Shown piece by piece: positions 3,779 to 58,451 of a stretch of DNA of 64,000 nt (position 1 is its first letter; every line of letters begins with the position of its first letter). The notes beneath the pieces were generated by a model. That model was not told where the DNA came from. It ran no database searches and worked only from the letters and a program-made list of their open reading frames with translations. Origin of the DNA: Salminus brasiliensis (Eukaryota > Chordata > Actinopteri > Characiformes > Bryconidae); the NCBI RefSeq assembly GCF_030463535.1, contig NC_132880.1:28663987-28727986 (forward strand), written 5' to 3'. The translations under genes were made by a program, and so were the position numbers.

Positions 3779-4050
3779 AAGACTTATTATACACTAACTA
3801 CTTTGAATTCATTAGTGTCAACTATAATTAATTCTGTAATTATGGTAAATTCATTAATACACACTATGAATCATTCAGTAACAACTATAAATTCATTAGT
3901 ATTTACTATGAATCATTTAGTAACTACTATAAATTAACTAGTGTCCACTATGAATCATTTAGTTATGACTACAAATTCATTCATATCAACTATGAATCAT
4001 TTGGTAACAACAATGAATTAATTAGTGTCCACTATAAATTAGTTCAATAT
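3779..4050. repeat. Degenerate AT-rich minisatellite, about 21-bp unit
   Basis: Imperfect units of the type 'actatgaatcatttagtaa' and 'actataaattcattagtgt' alternate, which gives a higher-order period of roughly 43 bases. A related array with the same 'cagtaactac...aattatt' flavour sits inside an asns intron at 31190-31520. Confidence 0.75.
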
Positions 4051-30369: not shown

Positions 30370-33300
30370 TTACTGGTCCTTTTCTGGCTTGTAGATGGAG
30401 AGGGTTCTGGCCGAGGGGTCAGTGGCTTTGATCCAGCGGGGCATCCAGTAATGGGGGGTCCAATCACAGCGGCCGGGGTAATGCTTCTCAAACACTTGCC
30501 TGATGAAGAAGCCTTCTTTGGTAGTAGGGGGGTTGTAAGAGAACTGCTCAGCTGCCTTTTCTAACTGGGCGTCATTAATCTACATAAATAGAGAGAAAGG
30601 AAGTGAGAGAAGCAATTAAAATCTTTTGAAATGGATTTTTTCTACTTTTTCAGAGAATGAAAAACATGGTGAAACGAGGCGTCTATTCATCAAGAATCCT
30701 GACTTTTATGTCCCGTATTCCAAGCATATGCTCTTCACTTCACAGTGAGCTCTGTATCAAAGATTTTAATGTTTTGTGGCCCCTGACTGTTTTCATGCAC
30801 ATATCAAGTGATTTTTCTCTGAGAATTTCTTTGAGAATTTGTAAGTGTATTAGATGTGTGTGTATGTGTGTGTGTATGTATGTATTTGTGTGTACCTTAG
30901 ATTCAATGTGCTCCTGCAAGAAGGTATACCAGGACTTTTTCATTGAAGTCATTCCATCACTGAAAGCCTCTTTTCGTCTCCACAGTATCTCATTTGGAAG
31001 CAGATTCAGCCCACTGAACGCATCCCTCAGCAGATGCTTCTCCACTCCATCCTGTTTCGACAAACCATGTTTTTTTATAGCCCCGGAATAACAGGCAGAA
31101 CTCTACAAATTCTCTACAATTCTACAAATAAACCCTGCCATTTGTTTTAATAAATAGGTTTACTGATGTTACCATTATGCAATATTCAGGACCTACTATT
31201 CATTATTCAATAACAACTATAAATTATTCTGTACCTTCTACAATGTATTTTGTAATTACTTAGAACTATTCTGTATTTACGACTAATTATTCATTTACTA
31301 CTACACATTAATATCTACAATTAATTATTTAGTGACTAAAATTAGTTATTTAGTATCTACAATTAACTATTCAGTAACTGCCACAATTGATTCAGTAACT
31401 ACATCTACAATGGATTTAGCATCTCCAACAAATTATTTCGTACCGACTATTGAATATTAAGTAACTATTAGCAATTACTCAGCATCTTATACAAACTATT
31501 CAGTAAATACTATGAATTGTTCCATCAAGTATACTTGTGGCTCCATACTTCCATAATTTACTTGAGTAAGACTGATATTTCACAACAGTACAGTTCTTCA
31601 CTTTTTACTTAAAAATGGGGAAAAAGGAGGAAATTTTTCTTCACCTTTGGTACCCGCATCTCCTCAGGCAGGGAAAGATAGTAGGCAGTGAATCTGTGGT
31701 CCAGAAAAGGCACTCTCAGCTCCAGTCTAATGAGAGAAGACAGGACAGAGAATTCAGAGGACAACTCAAATAGGACAAAAACAAAACAAAACAACTACAA
31801 TTAAACAAAACAAATAGAAACCAGACATTTTTCCTTACCCGTGTGCAGCTGTAGTCCTATCTGCTCTCAGCGCATCAAACAGATAAAGCTCCTTCAGCAG
31901 ACGCACACTTTCCTCCGCACCGGCCTTTGGTGATGGAGCCTGGAATAAGCCAAGACTGACTTACTACAAGAAGTTGAAGACAAATGAGTATTAAACAGAT
32001 AAAACAAGCTAGTTCTGAGAGATGAGATGTACCTTATGGAAGTAAATGTAACCCTGTGTGAGTTCATCAGATCCTTCACCAGAGAAGATCACCACACTGT
32101 CGGTCTTCTCTTGGATATACTTAGAAACCAGATACATTCCTGGAAACAAAAGCAGAAAGCAGATAATTACATGACCTATTTTACAAGTGTTTTACCTGAC
32201 TTTCAACATGGAACAATAGCCAGTGGCTAAAAGGGACAGGGGCTGTCATGATTAATGATCTCAACCTGTTCACCATCTTAATAAAAGGTATGTTTATCTT
32301 ATTGCTGAACTGTCAGAGATTACATGTCAACTGTCATGATCACAAAGTATATTTTAATGGGCCCATATCATAGAAGATGATGTAATCTGTAAAGTTTGAT
32401 AAAGTTTCTAAATGGACTACACAGTTCATACAGTCCATATGTGGGAACTAAAGTCATGACTTTCTGTCAGGAAAAGTCCATATTCCATATTTCCACCTCT
32501 TCACCCCCGCACCCTGTCAATGTACGCTAAAAATATAAGGTGTGTTCCAGTGGATTGTTTCTGGAATGAGGCACAGCAACAAAAGAGCAGCCAATCAGAA
32601 TGGAGGTTATTTACAATGTTTACAGAAGTCCTTGAGGTACAGACACAAAACAGCTTCATTTTAAAGAAGGCTGGAAAGTAGCTAGTGTGTATTTGTGTGT
32701 GACTTTTATAACTGAGACACTAGACACAATGTGCCATGTGCAACAGACTTTAAACTCCGTTTCTGGACTAGGACATAAGTAAACAGCCACCGGGGCCAGT
32801 TTTCACTTCTTTTCAGTTAAAGAAATTATGCACAAAATGTTCCAGCTTCCCAGAGCTGACCCAGCAGTTGTAAGACCAGCCTTATGGAAGTTCATTCTCT
32901 CTAATTCAAAGGAATTTACACCGATTCAAATCATCAAATCAGCTTAGTTAATTCCCCTAGGGTGTACCAGCTACCTCAGGGGGGCTATATCACATTAGGT
33001 CTGTTTAAAATAAATGAAGACTAGATTAGTCTTACACCTCTTTGGATGGGTTGGCTGCTTTTTTCCTGTCATCATACTGAACCGTAAAGCCTAAACCATT
33101 GTGATAACCTAACCATGACTTTAGTGTACCATTACACCCCTAATACACACACAATCCTGTACTCACCAACAGAAGCGCGGACTGTGGTGATGTCGTAACT
33201 CTCAAGATGGATAATGACGTCCTCTATAGCCTTGATAGCCTCCTCTGGGGTAAAGCTTACCTCATGGTGCTCACTGCCTATGTGGGCTGCTACCTACAGA

Positions 33301-36300: not shown

Positions 36301-36781
36301 TTTAAGTTCTACTGACTCAAAATCGAAACATGACCTGATGTGACAGCCAGCGACAATGGCTCCCTGTCAGAGACATTTTGTTCAGTACTAAATTTAATTT
36401 TCCTCTCAGCTGATGCCTTAGGGCGTCTACCAAGACTACAAAGCTGCCAATGTTCCTATGATCTTAAGAGCCTCGAAGGTTTGGTGGTTGGCCCGTTAAT
36501 GCGGCATAAATGTGGTCAACAGCAACACGTACACGTTTGTGGTTGTAGATTTCGCCGTTGTAGCAGAGCCAGAGGTAAGGGAACTTCTTCACTCGCAGGG
36601 GCTGCATGCCATACAGCTGGTCCACGATGGCCAAGCGGTGGAAACCGAAGCAGCAGTTGGTAAAACCATTGACGTTTTCGAAGCGAAAAGCATCTGGACC
36701 CCGATGTGCAATCTTCATAGCATTGGTGCACTGAACCGACAGGCACTCATCGCTCCCAAATAAGGCCCATATACCACACAT
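30370..36781 (-). CDS. asns: Asparagine synthetase (glutamine-hydrolysing)
   Basis: Cytosolic enzyme making asparagine from aspartate, ATP and glutamine. Eleven coding exons on the minus strand: 36781-36533, 35715-35478, 34458-34273, 33722-33621, 33501-33374, 33293-33167, 32139-32033, 31939-31839, 31726-31645, 31051-30896 and 30579-30370. All splice borders are GT/AG and all phases agree, giving 561 aa, the same length as human ASNS. The N-terminus MCGIWALFG supplies the class-II glutaminase nucleophile Cys2, with HRGPDA and CYNGEIYNH following. The synthetase domain shows the PPi loop SGGLDSS across the fourth/fifth exon join, then [12 protein letters not shown], and [10 protein letters not shown] near the C-terminal third. 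The start is fixed by the invariant MCGIW. An acceptor at 36788 precedes the ATG, so transcription starts upstream in a noncoding exon. No lesion is seen; this looks functional. Confidence 0.97.
31190..31525. repeat. Degenerate AT-rich minisatellite in asns intron 9
   Basis: Imperfect units of about 20-22 bases, such as 'acaattaactattcagtaac' and 'actatgaattgttccatcaa', fill most of the intron between the 31726-31645 and 31051-30896 exons. The consensus is very like the array at 3779-4050. Confidence 0.7.
34531..35072. mobile_element. MITE with GTTTACACC ends in asns intron
   Basis: The left end 'tgtttacacccggtattaac' then 'atg' is matched in inverse by 'catgttaatgccaggtgtaa' at the right end. 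The interior contains 'gatgatcggatcacattcgg' and 'tgtgatcggattcagtcagc'. It lies in the intron between coding exons 2 and 3, outside splice signals. Another element with similar ends is at 58914-59681. Confidence 0.75.
36085..36235 (-). mobile_element. LINE/SINE-type 3' tail fragment in asns intron
   Basis: 'catttacatttatggaattt' then 'agctgacactcttatccaga' is the reverse complement of the common fish retroelement tail ending in 'ctggataagagcgtctgcta'. Nearby 'cttattgatgtagtgcagca' extends the match. Copies of the same tail occur at 49137-49185 (+) and 61912-62060 (-). Confidence 0.6.
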
Positions 36782-36834
36782 TTTGCTTCTGGAGAGAAAA
36801 AAAGATATTTGTCTCTGAATAGTACATCACAGCA

Positions 36835-37197: not shown

Positions 37198-37716
37198 TTT
37201 AGTAATGCTTTATATAGTTTAGCATACTGGTATTAATACCAACCAATGGTACGGGAATGACTGGGAGTGACTGGCTCAAGTGCTGGCGACAGAACCAAAT
37301 ACAGTTTCACCAGGGGTCAGCTGTGACAAGCTGTCAGAGGACCAAACGATGTTTAAAAGTAGTCACTGACCCAGAGAATCTGATAATGCCATCCAGTTTG
37401 TTCACACTCTAGAGGGCACTCCTGAGCAGGCCCAACAAGTTTTTACTGATTTGTTTTTGCCATAATTTCTTCTGCTCAGGTACACAGATGGTAAGGTCAG
37501 AATTTCTAGCCAACTGGAAATATATACGACGATATACAGTCATACTATCCTCATTCGCAGCGTGTTACCTAGTGTATTGGGCTGAAAAAGAACGCTGAAT
37601 GGTATAATGCACTAACATTTACTATACACAACTTGCAGAGGCCTTTCTATCACATCAGTGCCATTCCAGTGCCATTGGAACGCCCCCAGCATCACTACTA
37701 CCACTGCCGCCACTGC

Positions 37717-37739
37717 TGATGCAACTTAACTGATGCAAC
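37717..37739. promoter_or_regulatory. Tandem TGATGCAAC motifs (candidate C/EBP-ATF sites)
   Basis: TGATGCAAC occurs at 37717-37725 and again at 37731-37739, within a 14-base tandem repeat. Each fits the C/EBP-ATF composite consensus (RTTKCATCA on the other strand) bound by ATF4 complexes. They lie in intron 1 of asns, about 0.7 kb downstream of the main candidate element. The same pair recurs in copy 2 at 39611-39619 and 39625-39633. Function is inferred only. Confidence 0.35.
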
Positions 37740-38348
37740 TTAACTGAATGGAAAAAACATAAAGCCAGATCTCAAAGACAAATCCCCACATAGATCTCCA
37801 GTCTTCACGTACAGGATACACATGGAGCAGAAAGCGAGCTACATCACGGCGTACACAGTTATTCCTATAATACATTATCAGTAGACATTTTTAAAGTCAT
37901 TAATAAGGGAGATATCGCCGCTATGACCTGGAGAAAAATACTTTAGTCGACAGAAATGAAAATACTCAGCAATACTAACATAAAGAATACTCATACCGGT
38001 AAGGAACTACTTGTGCTCCACTGCCCACATAACGACTAAAGCTGAAATGTAAGCCACACAGTTTGGGAAGATGAAATTTGAAGGGTGGAGATGAAGGTGT
38101 TCAACAAACCCAGAATTACAAAGCAAGTCAGAACCAGACCGAAAGCTAGCTATAACGAAGCTGTCTGGATCAGCTCTGGCAATATTTCGCCATGTGCCGG
38201 TGTTGACACTCAGGATCAGAAGCAGACCAAACTGTGTGATAATTTAACGGATTAGAGGTTTTCTGATCTCCTGTCTAGTACAGAACAATAGGAACGAGAT
38301 AACTGCTCGAGTACGGACACAGGAAGTTTCAATTACTCTTACTTTTAC

Positions 38349-38395
38349 CTTCCAGCAGAGACAGGCGTACAGGTCGAGCACGTGCTACAGTAGAC
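38349..38395 (-). other. asns: asns noncoding first exon (5' UTR), 3' border at 38349
   Basis: On the minus strand 'ctgctggaag' is followed by the strong donor GTAAAAGT at 38348. The coding-exon acceptor at 36788 requires an upstream noncoding exon, and this one lies just after the response elements at 38414-38442. The upstream boundary (transcription start) is only estimated from the spacing known in human ASNS. A CACGTG E-box at 38379-38384 falls in or at the edge of the exon. Confidence 0.55.
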
Positions 38396-38413
38396 TGGAG
38401 CAGACTGTCGTGG

Positions 38414-38442
38414 TGTAACATGAAGCACACGGCTGATGAAAC
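38414..38442 (-). promoter_or_regulatory. asns: asns nutrient-sensing response elements (NSRE-1/NSRE-2-like)
   Basis: The motif TGATGAAAC (plus strand 38434-38442; minus strand GTTTCATCA) is identical to the human ASNS NSRE-1 core bound by ATF4 and C/EBP factors. GTTACA, the NSRE-2 core, follows on the gene's own strand at 38419-38414, 14 bases downstream. In human the two are about 11 bases apart. Here NSRE-1 is inverted relative to the gene, as far as I recall the human orientation. Position just upstream of exon 1 supports a role in induction by amino-acid limitation and ER stress. Confidence 0.65.
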
Positions 38443-38716
38443 TGCGCTCTCAGTGTACTCACTTCCACTCACTACCCGACAGCAGCGCAGCTACAGACTG
38501 TCAAAATAAAAGTCCCTAACGAGAGACACACGACACATGGGGACTTCCGGTCTAAGTTGTCTTTCTCAATGAGAGGGGAAAATAAAAACGGTCGTTATAG
38601 GTCATAAGGACATTTAGAGTTTCAGCTTAAAATAATTCTACATGCAAAATAAAGCTGCCGTCACACCAAATCTAAATGAAAAATTAAACAAACAAAACAA
38701 TTGTTCACTTGAAAAA

Positions 38717-39164
38717 TAATTAAGGTAATCTTCATCTTAATCTCCTCAGGCCCCCAGTGTAAAACTACAAAGTTGGACTTCTAAATATCTTCCTTCAGTT
38801 TTGCTCTCCTCTCTGTGTAGAACAGTCCTTAAAAGTGGCCATGCTTACATCAGCATACCCCTGATCAATCACAAGGCTAGCATGGCTCTGCCCTCTATTC
38901 GAGTCAGCACGACCTGGAACCCTAGACTGGAGCACCAAGTTAAAGCTAAATCTAAACCTAAAGTGCCACGACTTTGAGAGTGGCTGCCCCTTCGATGGAA
39001 GGTCCCAACACAGCAGCGTATCTGGAGAGATCCGCGGCCTAATCCCCACGCATTGTGTATAAATGCCCCGGTGATGCGCAGAGGGCTGAAAGGGATGTCG
39101 GGGCGCACGGGACAGTCGCAGCTCAAGCTTGGGTCTATACATGGACTGATAACTCTGTTATAGA
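38717..39164. repeat. Duplicated block B, copy 1
   Basis: The 448-base block matches 43917-44364 base for base in length; differences are confined to the first 80 bases. It is GC-richer than its surroundings and carries a 115-codon open frame on the minus strand in both copies. The encoded sequence (MYRPKLELRLSRAP...) is Arg/Ser-rich and matches no family I know. It is treated as non-coding repeat DNA. Confidence 0.9.
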
Positions 39165-39359
39165 GATATATAATATAGTATATACAACAGTATACAAAAC
39201 ACACATATCCAACAGTACAAAAGTTCTGAAACATTGTATATGCTATGTTTTATTCCTTACTAATATGTTAAATTCACTCAGTAAATAGAAATTGTACTAC
39301 TTTGAGTAGTAGCTCTGCAGTAGATGCCATATTTCAGTACAAACAAGCATGTACTTGGA

Positions 39360-39385
39360 ACAGGGGTGTCCAAACTTTTGCTTAT
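39360..39385. mobile_element. Transposon-end remnant at the block A2 junction
   Basis: 'caggggtgtccaaacttttg' is a terminal sequence typical of short fish DNA elements. It stops exactly where copy 2 of block A begins at 39386. No second end is seen. Confidence 0.4.
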
Positions 39386-40614
39386 GACGATATACAGTCA
39401 TACTATCCTCATTCGCAGCGTGTTACCTAGTGTATTGGGCTGAAAAAGAACGCTGAATGGTGTAATGCACTAACATTTACTATACACAACTTGCAGAGGC
39501 CTTTCTATCACATCAGTGCCATGCCCTAGACAGCAATACACTATGTAGCTAGGGAACTAGGGGTGGATTTGGAACGCCCCCAGCATCACTACTACCACTG
39601 CCGCCACTGCTGATGCAACTTAACTGATGCAACTTAACTGAATGGAAAAAACATAAAGCCAGATCTCAAAGACAAATCCCCACATAGATCTCCAGTCTTC
39701 ACGTACAGGATACACATGGAGCAGAAAGCGAGCTACATCACGGCGTACACAGTTATTCCTATAATACATTATCAGTAGACATTTTTAAAGTCATTAATAA
39801 GGGAGATATCGCCGCTATGACCTGGAGAAAAATACTTTAGTCGACAGAAATGAAAATACTCAGCAATACTAACATAAAGAATACTCATACCGGTAAGGAA
39901 CTACTTGTGCTCCACTGCCCACATAACGACTAAAGCTGAAATGTAAGCCACACAGTTTGGGAAGATGAAATTTGAAGGGTGGAGATGAAGGTGTTCAACA
40001 AACCCAGAATTACAAAGCAAGTCAGAACCAGACCGAAAGCTAGCTATAACGAAGCTGTCTGGATCAGCTCTGGCAATATTTCGCCATGTGCCGGTGTTGA
40101 CACTCAGGATCAGAAGCAGACCAAACTGTGTGATAATTTAACGGATTAGAGGTTTTCTGATCTCCTGTCTAGTACAGAACAATAGGAACGAGATAACTGC
40201 TCGAGTACGGACACAGGAAGTTTCAATTACTCTTACTTTTACCTTCCAGCAGAGACAGGCGTACAGGTCGAGCACGTGCTACAGTAGACTGGAGCAGACT
40301 GTCGTGGTGTAACATGAAGCACACGGCTGATGAAACTGCGCTCTCAGTGTACTCACTTCCACTCACTACCCGACAGCAGCGCAGCTACAGACTGTCAAAA
40401 TAAAAGTCCCTAACGAGAGACACACGACACATGGGGACTTCCGGTCTAAGTTGTCTTTCTCAATGAGAGGGGAAAAAAAAAAACGGTCGTTATAGGTCAT
40501 AAGGACATTTAGAGTTTCAGCTTAAAATAATTCTACATGCAAAATAAAGCTGCCGTCACACCAAATCTAAATGAAAAATTAAACAAACAAAAAAAAAAAA
40601 TTCATTTGAAAAAT
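39386..40614 (-). repeat. Duplicated block A, copy 2 (second asns promoter/exon 1)
   Basis: Near-identical to 37528-38717. Relative to copy 1 it carries 'ccctagacagcaatacacta' and following bases near 39530, replacing 'tccagtgccat'. It has its own NSRE-1-like TGATGAAAC (40328-40336), TGTAAC (40308-40313) and exon 1 donor (exon end 40243), all intact. Transcripts could in principle start here and splice to 36788. Confidence 0.95.
40308..40336 (-). promoter_or_regulatory. Second copy of the asns response elements
   Basis: TGTAAC (minus GTTACA) and TGATGAAAC are unchanged from the copy at 38414-38442, with the same spacing. It lies 1.9 kb further upstream of asns inside block A2. Whether it drives transcription is unknown. 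Confidence 0.5.
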
Positions 40615-40870
40615 CACCAACGCAAAAGTGGAATTTGTTTTGCTGAGATCCAGGTCAATTTTAACCCCGAGAATAAACAAACTTTGGGATTTGAGCAAAT
40701 AAAAAAAGGTTGGGCTAGGCTTGCATATGTCTCGGAAAACAAACAAACAGACAAACAGACAAACTGAACTGTCTAACCATAAAACTAGCTGGTTACGTTC
40801 CAATAGATCTTTAACAGATGACAGAATTTATTTTGGGTTAAACCCCATTTTGGAAGTATTCTGTTGTGAA

Positions 40871-41070
40871 GGCTGTTAGAGATCAAATTACTTTCTGTTT
40901 GTTTGTTTCCTTGTATGGGTGAAATGGAGTGATGCATGCACAATCAGGTTTTGTCAGTCTCATATTTGTTGTCTTTGATGTCTATGGCTACAACAAATTC
41001 ATCAATTATTGAAACGAATACGTGATTATTCTGATTGAGATTATCAGATTTGCTCCAATGTTACCAAATA
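40871..41070. repeat. Duplicated block D, copy 1
   Basis: Two hundred bases matching 42796-42995 with three mismatches seen by eye. It starts at 'ggctgttagagatcaaatta' and ends at 'ttaccaaata'. AT-rich, no gene. Confidence 0.9.
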
Positions 41071-41089
41071 AGAGTAAAGATGTGTAAAT

Positions 41090-41137
41090 GCCCCCAAGTG
41101 TAAAAGTACAAAGTTGGACTTCTAAATATCTTCCTTC
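41090..41137. repeat. Short piece of block B fused to block C
   Basis: 'gtgtaaaagtacaaagttgg' through 'aaatatcttccttcag' also occurs in B1 (38752-38798) and B2 (43951-43997). There it continues into the B body; here it joins block C1 directly. This marks a deletion or rearrangement junction. Confidence 0.85.
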
Positions 41138-42582
41138 AGAGCCACGAGCAGCAGCGGCTCCGCATCATCAAATCACAGCATTTGACAGACTGTTAATTTA
41201 GACACGCAGGTGAAAACAAGATCAGTTGAGCAACCGTGGTGTTAATTGTGCAAAAAAGATCTTGAGTGCTGGGAAAAAAAAGGACCAAGATCATTAGGAC
41301 AACACTATAAAACTATACAAGCCTAAGTAAAAACCCCAGAAACTGACACTCATTTGATGACTGCCAGCGTGCTCTCTCTCATTCAGACAGGTGAACTTTA
41401 ACGACCAGTTTCCAGGAGAGGCACTTTAAACAAAATATGTTCTTTAAAATAAAAATGTTTTTGGTTATAAAACTAGCTGCCGTCAAACAGTCTACTAAAA
41501 TAGCACTTGGCTGTGATCTGGTGCTGTTAGATTAAACGCAGTGTTCTTGAGTACCGTGTTTATATTGCTGTTGAAGGCAAGTGTCCGTCTGACAGAGCAG
41601 TCATTGCAGTCTACGCTGGACTGCGTCTCAGTCCGGTTCTGACCTCTTGACCCCCCCTGAGGTCAATGCTACAGTCGTTGTAGTCACTGCGCAGGGTGAG
41701 AAGTAAAGTAATCGTCAGTCCTGAATACGGTGGGAAGCTCTTGGTGCTGCTGCGGTGCTCTTTTAGGGCTGGCAGGCTTCTGAAAAGCAAGAAGAACAAA
41801 GGTCAACCACCTAACCAAGATCATGGGACAATATTATGCCAGCACAATCTGAGGTACAGATGCAGACAGCACCAGCATCTCGAATTCTGTCCCCATCTTG
41901 TTTATAGATTACATACAAGTTAATCAGCTGAGTGTCGGTACACACAGAATGTGCTGATCTTCCTGTGTGACCATATTTGAAAACATAGAACAAATAAAAA
42001 AAGAAGGGCTATCAAGCCACATCAAAACTGTAATAAATCATAATTTCATGCCTTGAATCCTTCAAATCCACATATATGGCCTGCTCAAGCCTGCCACAGT
42101 GAGTGTGAAAAAGTAGCTAAACCTTAGCAGAAAAGCCACTGTAAGGGACAGGGAGGGTGTGGTCTGAATATGCGCCACAACACAATAAAGCTGAAACAAA
42201 AGAAGTAAATGAAGTTTAGTTTGCTTTACGGTAACATTCCATTTGCTCTCCATAGAAGATCCTGAACTTCCAGTTCTCAACGAACATCTGATTACGGTAC
42301 CGGTGTGGAATCACTGCCAGGCTAATTGCCTAAGGTGCCTAAAGTACAGCATGTTCACTGTGCACTCCTGTGAAACTTTTAAACTATCTAACAACAGGAA
42401 TTAGTGAATTTGACTGTGAAGTTGAACAGCACGTCATCTGTGAACGCAAGGAGAAAATCAAGCTCCTCTCTCACTTCAGATACTCCTTAGGAATTTGGTG
42501 TTTTCCGGCACTCAGTATTACTGAGTATTACCATAAAACTACTGAATGTCAATACACACCTAATATAATAAAGTCATCTGGA
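41138..42582 (-). repeat. Duplicated block C, copy 1
   Basis: About 1.44 kb nearly identical to 45024-46471 at a constant offset of 3886-3887 bases. It contains a full second copy of the last bloc1s4 exon (41684-41779). Near its right end it departs from copy 2: 'gtatta' replaces 'aagccaggg', then the sequences re-align for about 50 bases. Confidence 0.95.
41684..41779 (-). pseudogene. Extra copy of bloc1s4 terminal exon
   Basis: Same 96 bases as the exon at 45570-45665, with an intact acceptor (TTTTCAG at 41786-41780), reading frame and stop. It encodes KPASPKRAPQQHQELPTVFR then TDDYFTSHPAQ. It lies downstream of the first copy, so bloc1s4 transcripts should use the proximal exon. It is not decayed, so it may be a recent duplicate or an alternative terminal exon. 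Confidence 0.8.
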
Positions 42583-42795
42583 CTTGTTTTTGAGAAAACA
42601 TTCTCAAAAAGTTCCATAAATACTGAGCACCTGTTGGCTGCTCAGATTCATTATTGAAGGCTTTGAGGGGTAATTGTTTATTTTTCTTTTATTACAGTTA
42701 GCTTTGCTCCACATCATGAGTACAGTGGAATGTTTAAACAGTTTGGACTGGACTAAACACTGTTTTTGGAGACTGGTGTATGGTTATGTGGTGTA

Positions 42796-42995
42796 GGCTG
42801 TTAGAGATCAAATTACTTTCTGTTTGTTTGTTTCCTTGTATGGGTGAAATGGAGTGATGCATGCACAATCAGGTTTTGTCAGTCTCATATTTGTTGTCTT
42901 TGAGGTCTATGGCTACAACAAATTCATCAATTATTGAAATGAATACGTGATTATTCTGATTGAGATTATCAGATTTGCTCAAATGTTACCAAATA
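42796..42995. repeat. Duplicated block D, copy 2
   Basis: Partner of 40871-41070. It is followed by unique AT-rich sequence (42996-43916) that is missing after copy 1. Confidence 0.9.
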
Positions 42996-43916
42996 ACTCT
43001 TATGTAGCTATTAGCTTTTAAATTGAGCTTTAGATTGGTTTATGCATTTGCCAACTAACAATGAAGACAGTAAAGATGAACAACTTATTTATTAATTTAA
43101 ATAAACTTTCCTGTGTTCTTTTGCCTCTCTAAATTTAAAACCAAGGATGTACAAAATAGCAGCAATAATATATGACAAAAGTAAATTTACTTGGTTTTCT
43201 CATAATTCTTTGAATCAGGAAAAATGTGAGACAAATATCAAAGTAATTAGCAAGCTTTCAAATGTGCTACTGCTACATTTGTTTCAGACAAATGTAGATA
43301 TTTTGATACAATTTCTGTTATGTATTGGTGACTTTTATTTTGACACAGCCTGAAATGAAGGGGTTGTGTGGAGTGTGGATTGCATCACGCTCCCTTTTTT
43401 CTTTTTTTTTTCCATTGCTCATTAAATGTTAATAGTGACTTAATTTAAGATTAAAGATTGTTTTTACACTCCGCCCATGTCCATGTGATGCTCCCACAAA
43501 TATAACTCTGCTCTGCACTCACACACCAAAGTGATGAAGCTGCAGACTGTGGCCGTTCCTGATGTGTTGCCTTATGGCCCCTCCTGACTCTGTATTTACA
43601 AACCGTTACAGTTTAATCCACACACTTCGTTCCTGAGAGACAGCAGCTCAGTCTGTATATTTTCACTGCAGCCCTGCGACCAGATTAAAGCAACTACTAA
43701 CCATTTGTTCCGAATTTTCCTTTAACTTTAGAAAGCAGAATGATGTATTTTACAACAAACACAAATAAAACCTTTAAATATTTCAATTTTCTATCACAGT
43801 AAACATGTTTTTGGGCAATAGCTTATGCTGGAGCAACCAGATGTAGCTTGGCTAGCTTGGACTTCTGATTTTTATGTAGCACTAAATTATGAGGGTTATA
43901 GAAAGAGTTTTCATTC
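42996..43916. other. Unique spacer between blocks D2 and B2
   Basis: Single-copy in this window. I see no gene, no splice-like exon and no recognisable mobile element. Confidence 0.5.
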
Positions 43917-44364
43917 TAATTAAGGTAATCTTGATCTTAATCTCCTCAGGCCCCCAGTGTAAATGTACAAAGTTGGTCTTTCAAATATCTTCCTTTAGTT
44001 TTGCTCTCCTCTCTGTGTAGAACAGTCCTTAAAAGTGGCCATGCTTACATCAGCATACCCCTGATCAATCACAAGGCTAGCATGGCTCTGCCCTCTATTC
44101 GAGTCAGCACGACCTGGAACCCTAGACTGGAGCACCAAGTTAAAGCTAAATCTAAACCTAAAGTGCCACGACTTTGAGAGTGGCTGCCCCTTCGATGGAA
44201 GGTCCCAACACAGCAGCGTATCTGGAGAGATCCGCGGCCTAATCCCCACGCATTGTGTATAAATGCCCCGGTGATGCGCAGAGGGCTGAAAGGGATGTCG
44301 GGGCGCACGGGACAGTCGCAGCTCAAGCTTGGGTCTATACATGGACTGATAACTCTGTTATAGA
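43917..44364. repeat. Duplicated block B, copy 2
   Basis: Partner of 38717-39164 at an offset of exactly 5200 bases. The identity ends at 'ctgttataga', after which the two diverge. Confidence 0.9.
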
Positions 44365-45023
44365 TATCAAAACCTCTGTAACTCCTAAAGATCTTAAAGT
44401 AAAAAGCTAGAAAACACAACTTCTCTGTCTAAAGGCAGGGTGTGTTGCCATGGTAACAAACTAAAATTGTGTTCACTCATGTTCATTATAATGTTAAACC
44501 AATGTCCAGACTGTTCTCAGAGAGGTCAGAGGAATGCATTTTGGCGATTCTCGAGTGTTTTAATCATATTTCTGCTTTGCGTTTTCTATTTAAGTGAAGC
44601 GTTCAGCAAAGTTTAACACCCAACATTAGTATTACATGGAAAAACCAACAAAAAAAACAATAACAAAAAATAGAATATCAAAATGTGTTCCCAGGGACTT
44701 TAATGTCTCAGTACCTGATTCAGCAGTAAATCTTTAAAGACATCTTTTGGATGTGGATGAAAAACGAATGAATTGTGGTTTAGTTGCAAACACACCTCCC
44801 CCGACTGAAACAACTACTGAAACTTATGATTAAACAAAGCTACATCAGTTTTTTACAATATTTTTGTATTTTATTATAAATAAACAAACATTAGTTACAA
44901 ATCAGTTGAAGTAAATACTGATTAGGTTAACTGGTTAATGACATTGATGTATAAAAGGACATGGTTCACTCAATATACGTTTCAAAGCCTGGACAGCATA
45001 GCATTAAATGTACATTATGATGA
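44365..45023. other. Unique spacer between blocks B2 and C2
   Basis: AT-rich single-copy sequence; nothing recognised. Confidence 0.5.
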
Positions 45024-46471
45024 AGAGCCACGAGCAGCAGCGGCTCCGCATCATCAAATCACAGCATTTGACAGACTGTTAATTTAGACACGCAGGTGAA
45101 AACAAGATCAGTTGAGCAACCGTGGTGTTAATTGTGCAAAAAAGATCTTGAGTGCTGGGAAAAAAAAGGACCAAGATCATTAGGACAACACTATAAAACT
45201 ATACAAGCCTAAGTAAAAACCCCAGAAACTGACACTCATTTGATGACTGCCAGCGTGCTCTCTCTCATTCAGACAGGTGAACTTTAACGACCAGTTTCCA
45301 GGAGAGGCACTTTAAACAAAATATGTTCTTTAAAATAAAAATGTTTTTGGTTATAAAACTAGCTGCCGTCAAACAGTCTACTAAAATAGCACTTGGCTGT
45401 GATCTGGTGCTGTTAGATTAAACGCAGTGTTCTTGAGTACCGTGTTTATATTGCTGTTGAAGGCAAGTGTCCGTCTGACAGAGCAGTCATTGCAGTCTAC
45501 GCTGGACTGCGTCTCAGTCCGGTTCTGACCTCTTGACCCCCCCTGAGGTCAATGCTACAGTCGTTGTAGTCACTGCGCAGGGTGAGAAGTAAAGTAATCG
45601 TCAGTCCTGAATACGGTGGGAAGCTCTTGGTGCTGCTGCGGTGCTCTTTTAGGGCTGGCAGGCTTCTGAAAAGCAAGAAGAACAAAGGTCAACCACCTAA
45701 CCAAGATCATGGGACAATATTATGCCAGCACAATCTGAGGTACAGATGCAGACAGCACCAGCATCTCGAATTCTGTCCCCATCTTGTTTATAGATTACAT
45801 ACAAGTTAATCAGCTGAGTGTCGGTACACACAGAATGTGCTGATCTTCCTGTGTGACCATATTTGAAAACATAGAACAAATAAAAAAAGAAGGGCTATCA
45901 AGCCACATCAAAACTGTAATAAATCATAATTTCATGCCTTCAAATCCTTCAAATCCACATATATGGCCTGCTCAAGCCTGCCACAGTGAGTGTGAAAAAG
46001 TAGCTAAACCTTAGCAGAAAAGCCACTGTAAGGGACAGGGAGGGTGTGGTCTGAATATGCGCCACAACACAATAAAGCTGAAACAAAAGAAGTAAATGAA
46101 GTTTAGTTTGCTTTACGGTAACATTCCATTTGCTCTCCATAGAAGATCCTGAACTTCCAGTTCTCAACGAACATCTGATTACGGTACCGGTGTGGAATCA
46201 CTGCCAGGCTAATTGCCTAAGGTGCCTAAAGTACAGCATGTTCACTGTGCACTCCTGTGAAACTTTTAAACTATCTAACAACAGGAATTAGTGAATTTGA
46301 CTGTGAAGTTGAACAGCACGTCATCTGTGAACGCAAGGAGAAAATCAAGCTCCTCTCTCACTTCAGATCCTCCTTAGGAATTTGGTGTTTTCCGGCACTC
46401 AGTATTACTGAAGCCAGGGCCATAAAACTACTGAATGTTAATACACACCTAATATAATAAAGTCATCTGGA
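45024..46471 (-). repeat. Duplicated block C, copy 2 (holds the used bloc1s4 last exon)
   Basis: Partner of 41138-42582. It contains the terminal bloc1s4 exon at 45570-45665 and presumably its 3' UTR on the minus strand. Its right end is one arm of a 145-base hairpin. Confidence 0.95.
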
Positions 46472-48826
46472 CAGCTGCTCAGTATTTATGGAGCTTCCAA
46501 ATGACTTTATTAGATGTGTGTATTGAAATTCAGTAGTTTTATGGCCCTGGCTTCAGGGCTTCTGCATGGGCTGCTGTGGTAACGACGCAGGCGCCTTTTT
46601 TAAAGCCCTTATAGGCAAGTCTGCCGCAACGCCACGGGGCAGTTATTATCAGACACACAAAACCATGTTCCTAAGTCTATGAAGGGGGGGAGATCAAAAT
46701 ACTTGAAACTGAAGGTTATCGTTGTTGTGGCATAACACAGTGTTTATCCGTAATCGGATACTGCAACTAGTAACTGGTGTCCTCATTTATACCATCTGTA
46801 CTTTCATATGCAGAAGCAGGAGAGATGGAGGACGAATCCTCCACCTCCACCAGACTAAGATACACCTGTATAGATCCGATTCTATTCACGTTTCAGACCA
46901 CATCCAAATGCGGTTTGGATCTGATTAGCAAACATTGCATTTCATGTGGTTTTTGGCTGTCCAGACTATAACAAATCAATACAGTCTAGATAGGCCAGGA
47001 TTTAGGCTGTCACTCTGAAAGTCCCATTTTCTCTATTACTTTAAAGTCCATCAAACTACTTCAGTTTTAACTACCCCCCCATTCTGTTATTGAGCATGTA
47101 CCATTTAAAATGTACCCTGCATTTATTACATACTACAATGCAACAAAAGCACATAATGAAATTTACTGTTCAAAAACACGTCAGTTCATTATTAGGAGAG
47201 CCAAGGGACTGATCAACAGCCATTTTAATACTTGAATATATAAATACAAAGGGTTTCCATTATGCAGCTGTTTTATGCACAGTGATGCCTACACAGGGGG
47301 GGGGGGGGGGGGGGTGACTGGGGGGGGGGGTGACATTTCAAAACAAGGCTTTCTAAAAATTGATTTCTTTTTTTTTTTTTACAGCTGTCAGTTTTGAAAG
47401 TCCCGTTTGCCATCAGGAGCTTTGCCTTGGCATTAATCTGCTATGGATGTCAGATATGGTCGATTTTGGTTCGACCATATCTGACTTTTATTCGTCTCTA
47501 AAATGCCTTCTGATTTTTGATTATGTCATGATGCACCAGCAGGAAGGACAAAATAATATTACCTAATAATATCCCTTATTATCTTAAGCAGATTTTTAGA
47601 CACTGTGTCCAATGACTGTCCACTCTATTAGACATCTGTATTTCGTTGGTCAACCTTGTAAATGTAAAGTCAGAGACTTTATCTGTTACAGTTTATCTGT
47701 TGCTGCACAGTTTGTGTTGGTTATCCTCTAGTCCTTTATTAGTGGTCAAAGGACACAGTACACAGGACGTTATTTCTGATCATAATGAGACATTACTCAC
47801 GTTTAAAAATCCAGGGACACTCATTGTCCGGAAAATCTTTTTGAAAGCGCCTGGTAAGGTTTTGACTTCCCCTTCTGCCTGGGTAACCTGCTCCTCCATG
47901 GCACTCACGTTGCCTGCGACTATCTTCACAAAAGCCTTTAGATAATGTAGATAAAATATATATGTAATAAACAATTGAGTTATAGAAATAGCACAGATTG
48001 TTAGATATCGGCCACACTGATCATATAGCAGATAATGTCATATATATGAATACCTCCAACTTATCAATTTTTCTGTAAATCTCTCTCATGTCTTCAGATT
48101 TTTGGTGAATCTGAGGCAGGTTGATGTTCACTATCTGAGAGGTGTCGTTTCGAATCTGTTAAAAAAGGAAGAATTTGTGAATTAAGTTGCTTTAATTACC
48201 AGCGATGTTCAATTCTTATTACAAGCATTTAGGGCTGGGAGTATTTATCCACATGTAGAAGTAATTTTTTTTTTATGTTATTTTATTATGTATGAATGTT
48301 AATTCAATGTTTATTTATCATGACTTCTTTTCACAGTGGATTTCCATGGATGAAAAAAGCAGATTATAGCCAATTACCCGATGTCACCCTCCTCTGGTGG
48401 CAAAGGGAAATGTCCAGAACATAATGCATATGCAAGTGTAAAATACCAGGGGTTCAAAATAATGCATTTATCAATAGTTATAAATACTTTGTCCCAATTT
48501 ACTGATTTTTCTAAATTGCTTATTGTCCCAGCCCTACTAGGAACACCATCTCTCGAAATATGTTTATCAGTGAATAATTCTACATGTCAAAAAAAGGTGA
48601 AAAGAACACATCAGCTTACCATGTCCAACATCCCCACAAACTCGTCCACTCGAGTGAGCATTTCTTCTAGACTCTTCTCCAGGCAGAGGATCTGCAGGGT
48701 CAAAACACAATATTGAGACCTGTGGGAGACGCTCTCCTACAGGTGTGGTGGGGGAATCTGAAACTACAACACTTTTGATAACAAATAAACTGCCTCTGAG
48801 CATTAAATAGAACTCTAAATGCATGA

Positions 48827-48885
<59 letters not shown>

Positions 48886-50675
48886 CCTTCTGAAATATTG
48901 TGAATATAGCAGTTGTTCTTTGCATCATTACAAAACTTCATGGACCAATAGAAATGCTCCAAATGACTTGGAATAAAATCTTTCTCCACTGAAAATGAGG
49001 AAAGTTGCCAGAAGATTGTAAAGTTGCCATTTTAGTGATACAAGTTTTTTTTTTTTTGGTTTGTTAGTTTGGTTTGGTTTGGCAGGGTCACAGGTAAAGC
49101 CGAATAATGACTTGGTGATGTGTTGGTCGGGTCTTTTGTAAGTCGCTCTGGATAAGAGTGTCTGTTAAATGCCTTAAATACAGAAATATATTTCATCAGG
49201 TGACAGAAACTGTCCTGCCAGATAGTAGTTGGATTGTCTTGTTAGTTGCATTTAAACATATATATAACATATATAAACTATTAATGATCCTTCTTGAACT
49301 CAGTACAGACTAATAACCTAGAGGTTGATCCCTGATTAGTGCTGTTTTTTTCAAATATGAATATTTACTCATTCAGATGTTCTATCATGAAGTACAGAAA
49401 GCTAACTGTGCTGATGCTGGTTAACATAATCACAACTGTGTAAATTGTCAATTTAAGAAAAATACTTCACTAGTGTGTTGGCTACGAAGTAAATAAATAG
49501 ATGGCATGAAATCCTCTACAGTCTGTACATCAGTCTATTCTTCGAACCCCTTGTGTTTTTCCCTCCTTTCTGTTTTCTTCCTGTCTCCTTCACATGTATT
49601 GAGATGCCCAGTTCCAACTGCTCCATCCTGGTTGAACTAGCTCTCCACCACCCTCCTGCTCGCTGTCCTGCTCTGGGTGACTGTTTCTCTGCATGAATAT
49701 TAATATTAATATACTTTATCATCTCACTCACACTTTCATCTTGTATAGCTTTACACCACTTTTACCATTTTTTTTTTTCTTAATTCAGTTTTGTTTTATT
49801 ATTGTCTTCATTCCTGTTTTGATTTTTATTATTTTCTGGTATCAACCTGAGGAGGATGGGATCCTCTTTTGAGTCTGGGTTCCTCTCAAGGTTTCTTCCC
49901 CTCGACCTGAGGGAGTTTTTCCTTGCCACTGTCGCCACTGGCTTACTCAAAAGAGGCTTGGACCCGGATCTCGGTTAAGCTGCTTTGCACTACAGAACTA
50001 AAATTGAATTGAACTGAATTGAAATTGATACGGAAAATATTTGGTATTATAATAATCCATAAACCACAAACTATTGCTATAGAAAAGGACACTGAGACTT
50101 CCTCACTGCATGTAAGGAAAACGGTTGGATAGTCAGGATGCACGAGTGTTCCTCGTTTAGGGGCCAGTGTTGCCCCAGTTATGTCATTTTTATTAATATC
50201 AATATCAATAAAACCTCAATAAACCCGGCAGCTGTTCCAATCCACTCCCCTGTGCTGTCTGTGCTGCTTCTGCACTCATTTAGAAGTGTGGTGTCTGACA
50301 GCTAACTGCAGTCCTGCTAGTGTTCCTCACCTCCTCTCCAGCACTGGCACAGATATAGGAAGAGAAGCTCAGTGCCGTGCGCTGCAGCATCTCCTCGTCT
50401 TGCTCGTTGGGCTCCAGAGCTGCCTGGGACTCCGGCACTGCACCCGGGCCGAAGCTAGGGCTCTGGGGCACGGCGGGGCCGAAGCTCGGGCTCTGGGACA
50501 CATTTCCCGCGAAGCTGGGGCTCTGGGACACGGCCCCGCTGCTCAGGGCCTCGCTGACCATCGACAGGCTGCTGGCGCTCTGGGACACCACGCCGCTGTC
50601 CCGGCTGACCTCCGCGCTGGATTCCTCCAGAGGAGACAGCGCCGCTCCTCTCTCAAACCGCGGCTCCATGGCCAT
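45570..50675 (-). CDS. bloc1s4: Biogenesis of lysosome-related organelles complex 1 subunit 4 (cappuccino)
   Basis: Subunit of BLOC-1, the cytosolic complex that sorts cargo to melanosomes and other lysosome-related organelles. Five exons on the minus strand: 50675-50331, 48691-48620, 48155-48054, 47935-47801 and 45665-45570. All are phase 0 with GT/AG borders; 249 aa in total (human about 217). The conserved core LTRVDEFVGMLDM, then an IYRKIDKLEAFVKI stretch, MEEQVTQAEGE and AFKKIF-RTMSVP match the family's coiled-coil region. The end FRTDDYF matches the family C-terminus. Two in-frame ATGs (50675 and 50669) are possible; the second has a better GCCATGG context, so the start is uncertain by two residues. 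Residues 45-85 hold a tandem SQSPSF repeat not typical of the family. The N-terminal half is Ser-rich and probably disordered. The mammalian gene is intronless. Confidence 0.93.
46410..46554. repeat. Long imperfect hairpin in bloc1s4 intron 4
   Basis: The left arm 46410-46471 begins 'gaagccagggccataaaact'. The right arm 46496-46554 ends 'agttttatggccctggcttc' and is its reverse complement with a few mismatches. The loop is about 24 bases. The left arm is the end of block C2; in block C1 the loop motif appears in the opposite orientation ('ccataaatactgagcacctg', near 42613). Confidence 0.85.
46840..46975. mobile_element. Possible MITE fragment
   Basis: 'cagaccacatccaaatgcgg' followed by 'tttggatctgatta' resembles interior sequence of GATCGGAT-type short fish elements, as at 34570-34600. 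No terminal repeats were found. Confidence 0.3.
47296..47330. repeat. Poly(G) tract, possible G-quadruplex, in bloc1s4 intron 4
   Basis: Nineteen G, then TGACT, then eleven G on the plus strand. bloc1s4 is transcribed from the other strand, so its RNA would carry poly(C). Confidence 0.95.
47585..47780 (+). mobile_element. Fragment of the TTAGAAACACC-family element
   Basis: 'tgtccactctattagacatc', 'cttgtaaatgtaaagtcaga' and 'cctttattagtggtcaaagg' follow the order of the family's right half as I remember it. The fragment ends just short of bloc1s4 exon 4 (47801), so the element inserted very close to the splice donor. Confidence 0.6.
48829..48881. repeat. (TA)n microsatellite in bloc1s4 intron 1
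   Basis: About twenty-six perfect AT/TA units. Confidence 0.95.
49137..49185 (+). mobile_element. LINE/SINE 3' tail fragment
   Basis: 'gtaagtcgctctggataaga' then 'gtgtctgttaaatgcc' is the standard tail of a large fish retroelement family. No body is recognisable upstream. Confidence 0.65.
49795..50015 (+). mobile_element. Non-LTR element 3' end in bloc1s4 intron 1
   Basis: 'tctgggttcctctcaaggtt', 'gagggagtttttccttgcca' and 'gttaagctgctttgcactac' followed by an AATTGAATTGAA tail are the usual 3' terminus of a fish LINE. It is antisense to bloc1s4. Confidence 0.7.
50421..50540 (-). repeat. Coding 30-bp tandem repeat in bloc1s4 exon 1
   Basis: Units start at 50451, 50481 and 50511 (each beginning 'gaagct-gggctctggg' on the plus strand), with a degraded unit at 50421. 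Each unit encodes ten residues of the type (A/N)V(S/P)QSPSF(A/G)(P/G). The 30-base period keeps the frame, so copy number can change without a frameshift. Confidence 0.9.
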
Positions 50676-55056: not shown

Positions 55057-56045
55057 TTATAAGGTGATGACCATGCCGTCCTCCTCCACTCCTCCAGGGG
55101 GCAGAGCCAGGCTGTTTCGTGGGTCCGTTCTCAGGCTGCTGAGGATTTTGTGCAGGCTGCCGTTACTCTCTCTGGTGCCAATGCTGTGGTAGTGTGGCTG
55201 CTGCAGGTTCAGGTCCCTGTGGAGCCTATAGCTCAGGCTGCTGTGGGCAGTGCCGTTCAGGCTGGGCTGCGAGTGGAATGAGGCTGTGGAAATGACTGAA
55301 GGGGGTCTGGACTGGGGTCTGGTAGGAGGGCTAGGAGGAGACGGGGTGGCCGAGGACGTCTGGTGAGTGTGGGAGGCGTTGGAACGGCGAGACGGCCGGC
55401 TAACGCTGCTTTCGATGACGATGTCCGACTCTTCATCACTGTCCAAGTCGTCATGGCCATAACCGTGGGCAACAGTGGTCGTGGATGGCGAATTCGCGAT
55501 GGCCGGGAAGCTTCCTGACCCGCTGCTGTCGGAAGACTGGCCCGAACTGCCGGAAATCCGGCTGCTGCGGACAACGTTGTTGCGCTGGTTCACTGGTTTC
55601 ACGGTCACAATCAAGTTGTGGCTGTTGGCAATCATCATGTCCGTCACTTGGTCCAGGGTTTTGCCGGAAACTTCAATGCCGTTGACCTCCAGAACCTCGT
55701 CATTGACCGCTAGCAGGCCAGTGCTTTCTGCCAGGCCGCCAGGCACCATGCGGGAGATGAAAATGCCCGGTACTTTCTCCAGGCCGTGGGGGGTGACACG
55801 GACGCTGGTGCCGTCACGAATGTAGAAGCCCAGAGGCTTGTCCGAGCCGTGCCGGTACAACCGGACCCTGCGGTGTGACTCTGGCAGGATGTCCACATCA
55901 ATGATTGAAGACACAGGCCGGAAATCCTGAGGCATGCCGATGCGGATGTGCGGCCGCTTCCTGTTTAGGTCATTGCGAAGCGGGACGACAGCCTTCTTCT
56001 TCCGGGTCAGTGTGTTGGTGCCGAAGTTACTGTAGTCAACCTCCT
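55057..56045 (-). CDS. pard6g: Partitioning-defective 6 gamma, last coding exon (partial gene)
   Basis: Scaffold of the Par polarity complex, linking Cdc42-GTP, Par3 and atypical PKC at apical and junctional membranes. The exon starts at acceptor TTTTCCAG (AG at 56047-56046) in phase 1 and runs 328 codons to TAA. Early residues include the Par6 semi-CRIB with [20 protein letters not shown]. The PDZ domain follows ([53 protein letters not shown]). After a Ser/Pro-rich linker the C-terminus [20 protein letters not shown] then ends in VITL. That tail matches PARD6G rather than PARD6A or PARD6B; the teleost ga/gb paralog is not resolved. The N-terminal PB1 exons were not found downstream to 64000 and probably lie beyond the window. 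Confidence 0.93.
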
Positions 56046-58451
56046 CTGGAAAAGCGAGAAGACAGAAAGACATGACGTGAGGCCATAGGCTGTACATTTG
56101 ATGGGGGTTTTAAGCAGATGGGACTATGGTTTTTCCTATGAATTATATGTCTTTATTGTAAGGCTAGTTTTTAATACAACAATCCATCATTCAAAGCAAA
56201 ATAAAACTAGAAAATGTACTAATATATCAGAATACAGGGCTTTTGCTGATATTTTTGCGAATACACAGTCATCAAAACACCCTAAGAAACTCTGAAACTT
56301 TTATTCATTGACCAACGATGTGTCTGGGAATTCGCAATCACGAATCGCATACAAGCCCAATATTACGATATTGATCAACCATCATATAGCCCTACACCAC
56401 ACAATCGGAGCAGTGAATGTGCAAATGCACAGAGCAGCTCCAGGCAGACAGTCAGACCATTAAGGTGTGATTATGTGACTCAACACAGCTCTGTGGCATT
56501 TCAAAACATTACCTTTCAATACAAACACAAGCTTAGCTGAGATTACTGCACACTGCTGACTGAATGACCTTTTTTTAGAACCTATAGACACTGGACTGCA
56601 TCGTGTGCTGTGTGTTACAAAGTAAACAAACTGTGGGAATGAATCTATGCCTTTCTATATTAGTCTGCTCATGAACATGAAAGTAAATATAGTCCATATA
56701 GTAATGACCAGTCAACAGGTCAACTGACCCCAGACGCCCCATGTTTTTTTTTTCTTGTACAGTTAAAAGGTAAATTAATTTTTTTTTAACCATGTAAATT
56801 CTTATTTACCAAAAATAAACATTAGATTAAATAGATTCAAGAGTTCTCAACACATGTCTAAAATGAAAAATGCATGTAAATAGTTGATTTTTGCTTATCT
56901 CTGCAGTGCTGTGGCCTGGAAGGAACCCGGTATGACATGTGTTCATGCTCTCAACAAGACAAAAACAAATGCATACAAACATTTAAAAAATGTAGTCCAG
57001 AGCCAATCCATGGCCCTGCTGAATCTATATATTTTGATTCTGGTTAAGTAACATTACAGCACTACTATTTATTTATTAAACAATTCTTTCATAAGACACT
57101 TCCGCAAATCCAGGCCCTGATGCTTTAATAGACACAGGGATCTGATCTAACTGATCCAAATGTGTGTTAATTATCAACCCTAATCCCCAGCCATCATCTT
57201 ACGAAAGCGACACCATCTTTGTTAACAGTGGAGAAGCCAGAGCTGATGTGTGAAGGGGGAATGCAGTAATGGATAAACAGTTTACTGGACCAACACAGCC
57301 TGCTGACGGACGGCTTTCTGCTAATGATGGAGTTTCACTAGAAGACCTCACAGCAGTTTAATGAGACTTCACAAAGACTAGCAGCACCCAGGAAACATGG
57401 GCTCATTAACTTCATTAATGCAAGCTGCTATACTATGCCATGATATATTGGGGAAAATACTGCAATACTGAGTTTAATCAGTGCAGTCTGGCACTACCGC
57501 AACAGCAGCAGTCGCTTTAAACCTGCTTCAGACAACCACAGACGTACAAGGTACAATTCACCCCAAACCTCAGCTGGCCCCAGACTGGTCTGCTGCTCAA
57601 TTTGCATCGCCAGTTATAAGCAGTGCCCAGCGTGGGCTTTCAGGGGAAAGCAGTTTTGGACACTAGCCACCCTGCTGTTCAAATACTCCAGGATATATAT
57701 TCTAACAATGCTTGTATGCAGACTCTGAATTTCATCAAAGTGCTGCGTTGCAGTTATTCTTAGTCTGGGGCTGTGGCAGCATGCTTATTTTGATTGAGTC
57801 CAGACAGACTTTTATTATGCACTGGAATTTCAGCCGCAAGTGCAAGTCTCCTGATAGGAAACACATTGGAGTGTTGCTCTCTCTGGCCCTCATTAGGAGC
57901 ATACAGCACTCGCCAAGCCTCCACCCTCACTTCGGATCTATCTCAGACAAACTGGGTGCACCTCGCATGGCATTCTCTGCTGAAGGATCGGAAACTTCAG
58001 GTCTGCTAAAAAAACTGGGAAAGAAGAAAACTCTGGTGCGTACATTGGGTGTCTCCAATAGTCTTGCTTAAGTTTAGATCTCTGACACTGTTTTATCTAT
58101 AAACATAGAATAAAGTACAGATACAATTCATACTTCAACATGGCTAATGCCGTTTCAAGCTGTGCTAGTTAGCCTTCTAGCTCCAGTGCTAGACTAAATA
58201 ACTAAATAAGCAAACATGTCTTGGCTGATGAACTACATCTGGGGTAAGGGGAGATATTCTGCAAACGGGACTATCGCTTTAAGGCCAAATAAAACCGCTA
58301 GAGCCAGAACTGAAGCGACGGCGTGCACTTTTTCCACTGTACCTGGCAGAAACCAGCCCTGGCTATTTTCTTCTTCTGCTCAGACCAGTTGTCTGTGGAG
58401 TCCCACAGATTTAGAGAGGGTGGGGGTTATTTACCTTAGGTATGTAGTACC

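Follow-up and report, generated by a model that had tools for sequence, protein, structure and literature searches.

How did the interval between two neighbouring genes come to carry the same few blocks of sequence repeatedly and in broken order? The window considered here is a 64,000-nucleotide stretch of the Salminus brasiliensis genome (C3:28663987-28727986, NC_132880.1; genome 1.07 Gb, 103 contigs), in which near-identical blocks follow one another between asns (asparagine synthetase) and bloc1s4, both predicted on the minus strand. We describe the anatomy and order of these blocks, their dispersed-repeat content and the patchwork of identity among them. The arrangement is probably the product of tandem multiplication, most simply to three copies, of the interval from the bloc1s4 last exon to the asns first exon, followed by thinning of the copies by deletions and later conversion of their cores.

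Four block pairs are defined by self-BLAST and pairwise alignment. Block A, at 37525-38717 (A1) and 39383-40614 (A2), differs by 13 mismatches and 39 gap bases, 36 of which form a single insertion near the left edge of A2. Block B, at 38717-39167 (B1) and 43917-44367 (B2), aligns without gaps at an offset of 5200 with 8 mismatches, and block D, at 40859-41071 (D1) and 42784-42996 (D2), has 6 mismatches at an offset of 1925. Block C, at 41138-42583 (C1) and 45024-46472 (C2), has 8 mismatches and 3 gap bases, with an offset of 3886-3889. A 48-bp fragment, b (41092-41139), repeats the left part of B a third time and is 95.8% identical to B1 (E = 2e-16) and 87.5% identical to B2 (E = 6e-11). All copies of A, B, C, D and b are in direct orientation, and the E-values of the four pairs (0 to 5e-99) exclude a chance origin. 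The coordinates, order and offsets of these blocks agree with those of the original prediction made on this DNA. In a search of the whole genome, which skips very common words, blocks A and C were found in two places each, both of them here. A and C therefore each have at least two high-identity, locus-specific, direct copies at one place, as in a tandem segmental duplication.

Read along the plus strand, the blocks run A1 B1 A2 D1 b C1 D2 B2 C2, which had been interpreted as three tandem copies of an interval with the order A-D-B-C. A brute-force comparison of all 24 block orders identifies A-D-B-C as the only one that reads the series in three passes, so that the copies share one common order, again as expected of a tandem segmental duplication. 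This order gains weight because the blocks at its two ends adjoin the two genes, A lying next to asns and C next to bloc1s4.

Block A is on the side facing the asns start-codon exon (36464-36788, minus strand; coding 36464-36781, ATG at 36781). This exon matches the solved human asparagine synthetase structure 6gq3_A (2.1e-53), contains a glutamine amidotransferase Pfam domain and has a single match in this genome. An acceptor-like CTCCAG stands 7 bases before the ATG, with the predicted acceptor just before 36788, and a 5' untranslated exon is therefore expected further upstream. On its minus strand, block A carries GTTTCATCA, followed after 14 bases by GTTACA and further on by a donor-like GGAAG|GTAAAAGT. 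These elements span 38349-38442 in A1, where GTTTCATCA is the reverse complement of TGATGAAAC at 38434-38442, GTTACA is at 38414-38419 and the last exon base is 38349; the same elements span 40243-40336 in A2, with last exon base 40243. In the asparagine synthetase promoter, TGATGAAAC at -68 to -60 is reported as the amino-acid response element (PMC8619229). Here it lies, inverted, upstream of the asns coding exons together with GTTACA. The window contains TGATGAAAC twice, both times in A, and since the mean expected by chance is 1.11 and 33 of 100 shuffles reach two, this count by itself is no evidence for a promoter. The combination TGTAAC-gap-TGATGAAAC, a pattern defined after the site had been noticed, occurs at two sites, compared with zero in 100 shuffles; with one site in each A copy, the two count as a single independent case.

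Because the response-element pair is accompanied by a donor-like site where an upstream exon is expected, we predict that block A bears the asns promoter and non-coding exon 1, together with part of intron 1. The predicted exon has the same sequence in A1 and A2, and asns may be able to start from two near-identical promoters, with both transcripts splicing to one coding exon. A stronger proposal, that the second promoter works and has been kept identical by gene conversion or selection, giving a single asns gene a tandem, dose-raising pair of amino-acid-response promoters, seems to us very unlikely. Both A copies also contain 2.3 copies of a 14-bp unit (37717-37747 and 39611-39641), in the predicted asns intron 1, with TGATGCAAC present twice; TGATGCAAC is a further match to the C/EBP-ATF element pattern.

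At the other end of the interval, block C holds a predicted last coding exon of bloc1s4 with its flanks (coding 41779-41684 in C1 and 45665-45570 in C2, minus strand). Our bloc1s4 model joins this exon by hand to exons 1-4, themselves predicted by hand, at 47801-50675 (minus strand; 50.7-47.8 kb). Compared with human BLOC1S4, it is identical at 74 of 154 positions (E = 4e-48 for this one comparison). A search of the model against solved structures gave no convincing match among the five up to E = 1 (best 0.0057), which comprise three engineered proteins, the LINE-1 ORF1 protein and a caveolae protein. C2 adjoins the gene body and is followed by AATAAA at 44875, whereas the only AATAAA past C1, down to 40600, is at 40832, beyond D1. 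The positions of these signals suggest that C2 is the working last exon of bloc1s4 and that C1, with no AATAAA nearby, is a spare.

Across the outer edge of C2 (46408-46556) lies an imperfect palindrome, about 149 bp long, which may be a miniature inverted-repeat element, and the edge of C1 bears its left arm and a piece of its loop in inverted order. Upstream of bloc1s4, a long open frame on the minus strand (55057-56097) matches PAR-6 (partitioning defective 6 homolog beta, 3.6e-89) and is apparently the next gene. Long G runs broken by TGACT at 47304-47334 are a possible sequencing trouble spot.

The interval also contains dispersed repeats. B is an inner piece of repeat 1 (43898-44703, about 800 bp, including B2), to which the 48 bp of b also belong and which has other copies on many contigs. 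In D, 124 bp have no dispersed match among the matches scored, and the right part is the first 89 bp of repeat 2 (about 42908-43699); the extents of both repeats are estimated from matches to other copies. Spacer u (39168-39382, 215 bp), which occurs only between B1 and A2, has short dispersed-repeat matches, as does the start of the spacer after B2. In the searches with large repeat families 40 candidates were scored, of 583 (D and repeat 2), 469 (B and repeat 1) and 261, so that copy numbers are lower bounds; among the candidates scored, neither B nor D had a further copy near the mutual identity of its own pair.

Since B, b, u, a part of D and the beginning of the post-B2 spacer match dispersed repeats, repeated insertion of mobile elements has to be considered as an origin of the blocks. 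Blocks A and C, however, were found nowhere else in the genome search and bear predicted gene parts. B1 and B2 are 98% identical over 451 bp. For the other copies scored the figures are 72-89% over about 80-200 bp, rising to no more than 93-94% over stretches of 33-59 bp, and B1 represents an internal, truncated part of its element. Repeated insertion is therefore a poorly supported and barely credible explanation. The truncations of B1 and D1 fall within repeats 1 and 2, respectively, which fits deletions better than new insertions. By eye, several of 10 aligned copies of repeat 1 carry, at one point, up to about 30 bases that are absent from B1 (38717-38810) and B2 (43917-44010), and b (41092-41139) ends near that point.

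The differences between copies are unevenly distributed. Outside block edges and sites beside the 36-bp insertion in A2, which these core and left counts leave out, A has no mismatch in 904 core positions and three in 143 on the left (Fisher 0.0025), and B has none in 368 core positions and seven in 80 on the left (Fisher 4.6e-6); the boundaries for both tests were set after the mismatches had been viewed, and the tests left out four sites beside the A insertion, six towards the right edge of A and one in B, at 39165. C consists of two mismatch-free stretches (0/917 and 0/426) with one site between them, and seven of its eight mismatches lie within the last 102 bp; D has 3/202. The longest mismatch-free run was not equalled in 20,000 uniform placements for either A or B (C, 0.0026; D, 0.086).

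Along the B pair the identity changes abruptly, from 7/80 to 0/368, as would be expected of interlocus gene conversion. Relatedness may also change along this block. In the left 48 bp, B1 and b have two bases in common at sites where B2 keeps the base of most readable family copies, and at other sites B2 is the odd one. Judged in this way, by eye, the left part of B would group B1 with b, while the core makes B1 equal to B2; b has no core for comparison.

The original prediction had taken the small number of mismatches to indicate a single recent event. That conclusion is not supported, given the patchiness of the divergence (0/904, 0/368 and 0/917 against 7/80 and 3/202), which gene conversion or later re-copying of the cores would explain and one recent triplication does not. 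The pattern suggests an older duplication with later homogenisation. Dating by mismatch count was rejected on the same ground, and a low count in blocks of this kind does not date the duplication.

Rather than being triplicated in full, pieces of the interval could have been copied in jumping order by a single replication-based event with template switching. This is the main rival explanation, and we consider it rather unlikely. The junctions speak for it: homologies at the joins are short (T at A1/B1, AG at b/C1), and the 20-bp filler between D1 and b (41072-41091) contains a 10-mer, AGTAAAGATG, in common with repeat 2 (43069-43078), these being its only two sites in the window. Because of the 1-2-base homologies and the filler 10-mer, end joining or template switching fits these joins, and the palindrome at the outer edge of C is a further point in favour of switching. 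The left part of B (7/80) and D (3/202) are nevertheless unlike the identical cores, and a single event would still need later conversion to account for them; moreover, the 215 bp of u are unmatched at either parent edge.

It had also been proposed that two divergent haplotypes might have been laid end to end in the assembly. False duplication of divergent haplotypes is reported (PMC9516828) as widespread in older vertebrate assemblies and persisting in newer ones. The genome search found no second haplotype contig of this locus, so alternative alleles could be merged here. End-to-end haplotypes would, however, repeat a collinear order, and the observed A B A D b C D B C is not collinear. The joining sequences p (40615-40858, between A2 and D1), which has a single genome match, and q (42584-42783, between C1 and D2) were each found once in the genome among the matches scored; within q, a 26-bp piece (42609-42634) matches 46471-46496 in inverted orientation, and q has no further match among those scored. 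Block edges fall within repeats, where deletions would be expected to place them, and the patchy divergence also argues against an artefact, which we disfavour as quite unlikely.

Tandem multiplication with deletion and conversion remains our preferred account, and several points weigh against it, in addition to the placement and omissions of the Fisher tests noted above. Random block orders equal three passes in 6.4% of 20,000 trials when b is included and in 33% when it is not; when A is required to be first and C last, they equal it in 6.8% and 38%, respectively. The order pattern by itself is therefore weak. Triple presence is limited to B/b, with b only 48 bp long, and A, C and D occur twice. 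What stands of the proposed three A-D-B-C copies is the unique three-pass order and the fit of its end blocks to gene anatomy; the claim is weakened by the frequency with which random orders do as well, and by the fact that the one sequence present three times, like the right 89 bp of D, is a dispersed-repeat piece. Plain duplication and deletion does not account for spacers u and q. Clustering of the mismatches becomes modest once neighbouring ones are merged and edges excluded (A, 0.035; B, 0.011; C, 0.086; D, 0.54). The response element is reversed in orientation relative to the reported asns site, and the bloc1s4 model has no Pfam family above the cut-off (seven up to E = 1, including a weak BLOC1_2 match at 0.031).

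Under tandem multiplication, the interval from the bloc1s4 last exon to the asns first exon would have been repeated in tandem, giving in the simplest case three copies, and deletions would then have thinned them. In minus-strand order, the copy beside bloc1s4 would retain C2, repeat 1, repeat 2 and D2, with A lost; the middle one would retain C1, b, D1, p and A2, with the bodies of both dispersed repeats deleted; and the copy beside asns would retain B1 and A1. The cores of A, B and C may later have been made identical by gene conversion, or may have been copied more recently than the edges. As the most likely outcome, asns would be a single gene served by a pair of nearly identical promoters, and bloc1s4 would have a spare last exon. 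Genome changes of this kind are ordinary, and this one is mildly interesting for the sequence that it copied. If real, it would be a natural duplication of a stress-response promoter with the gene itself left single, and would show on a small and legible scale how tandem copies can be eroded by deletion yet homogenised in their cores.

Ten open reading frames in the region (eight in or overlapping blocks, one in repeat 2 and one beyond C2; the bloc1s4 C exon is not among them) gave no Pfam family up to E = 1, and by the same search minus-strand frames in B are unsupported as genes. No RNA family reached its gathering score and no tRNA was found. Literature searches on bloc1s4-asns, on tandem promoter or first-exon duplication in fish, and on tandem duplication of asns and its promoter in teleosts gave nothing that looked relevant from titles and the openings of abstracts. 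At distant places in the window, 3846-4039 and 31195-31403, there are related 21/42-bp tandem arrays of TTAGTAACTACAA-like units.

Three known systems bear comparison with this locus. It resembles a tandem segmental duplication with partial loss in its direct-order, high-identity, largely locus-specific blocks, gathered in one place with apparent deletions between them; unlike such duplications it is small (9 kb) and ends within two genes, so that gene ends are copied and not whole genes. Gene conversion is reported to make relatedness vary along segmental duplications (PMC3790853). Identical cores beside diverged edges, with B1 apparently nearer to b than to B2 on the left, are the likeness here, and the difference is that this locus offers only pairs and one short third copy. 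With the asns amino-acid response element (PMC8619229), the locus has in common the 9-mer TGATGAAAC, GTTACA nearby and a donor-like site downstream. It differs in that the predicted element is inverted relative to transcription and is present twice through duplication. The gap between TGATGAAAC and GTTACA, the NSRE-2 sequence, is 14 bp here and 11 bp in human asns.

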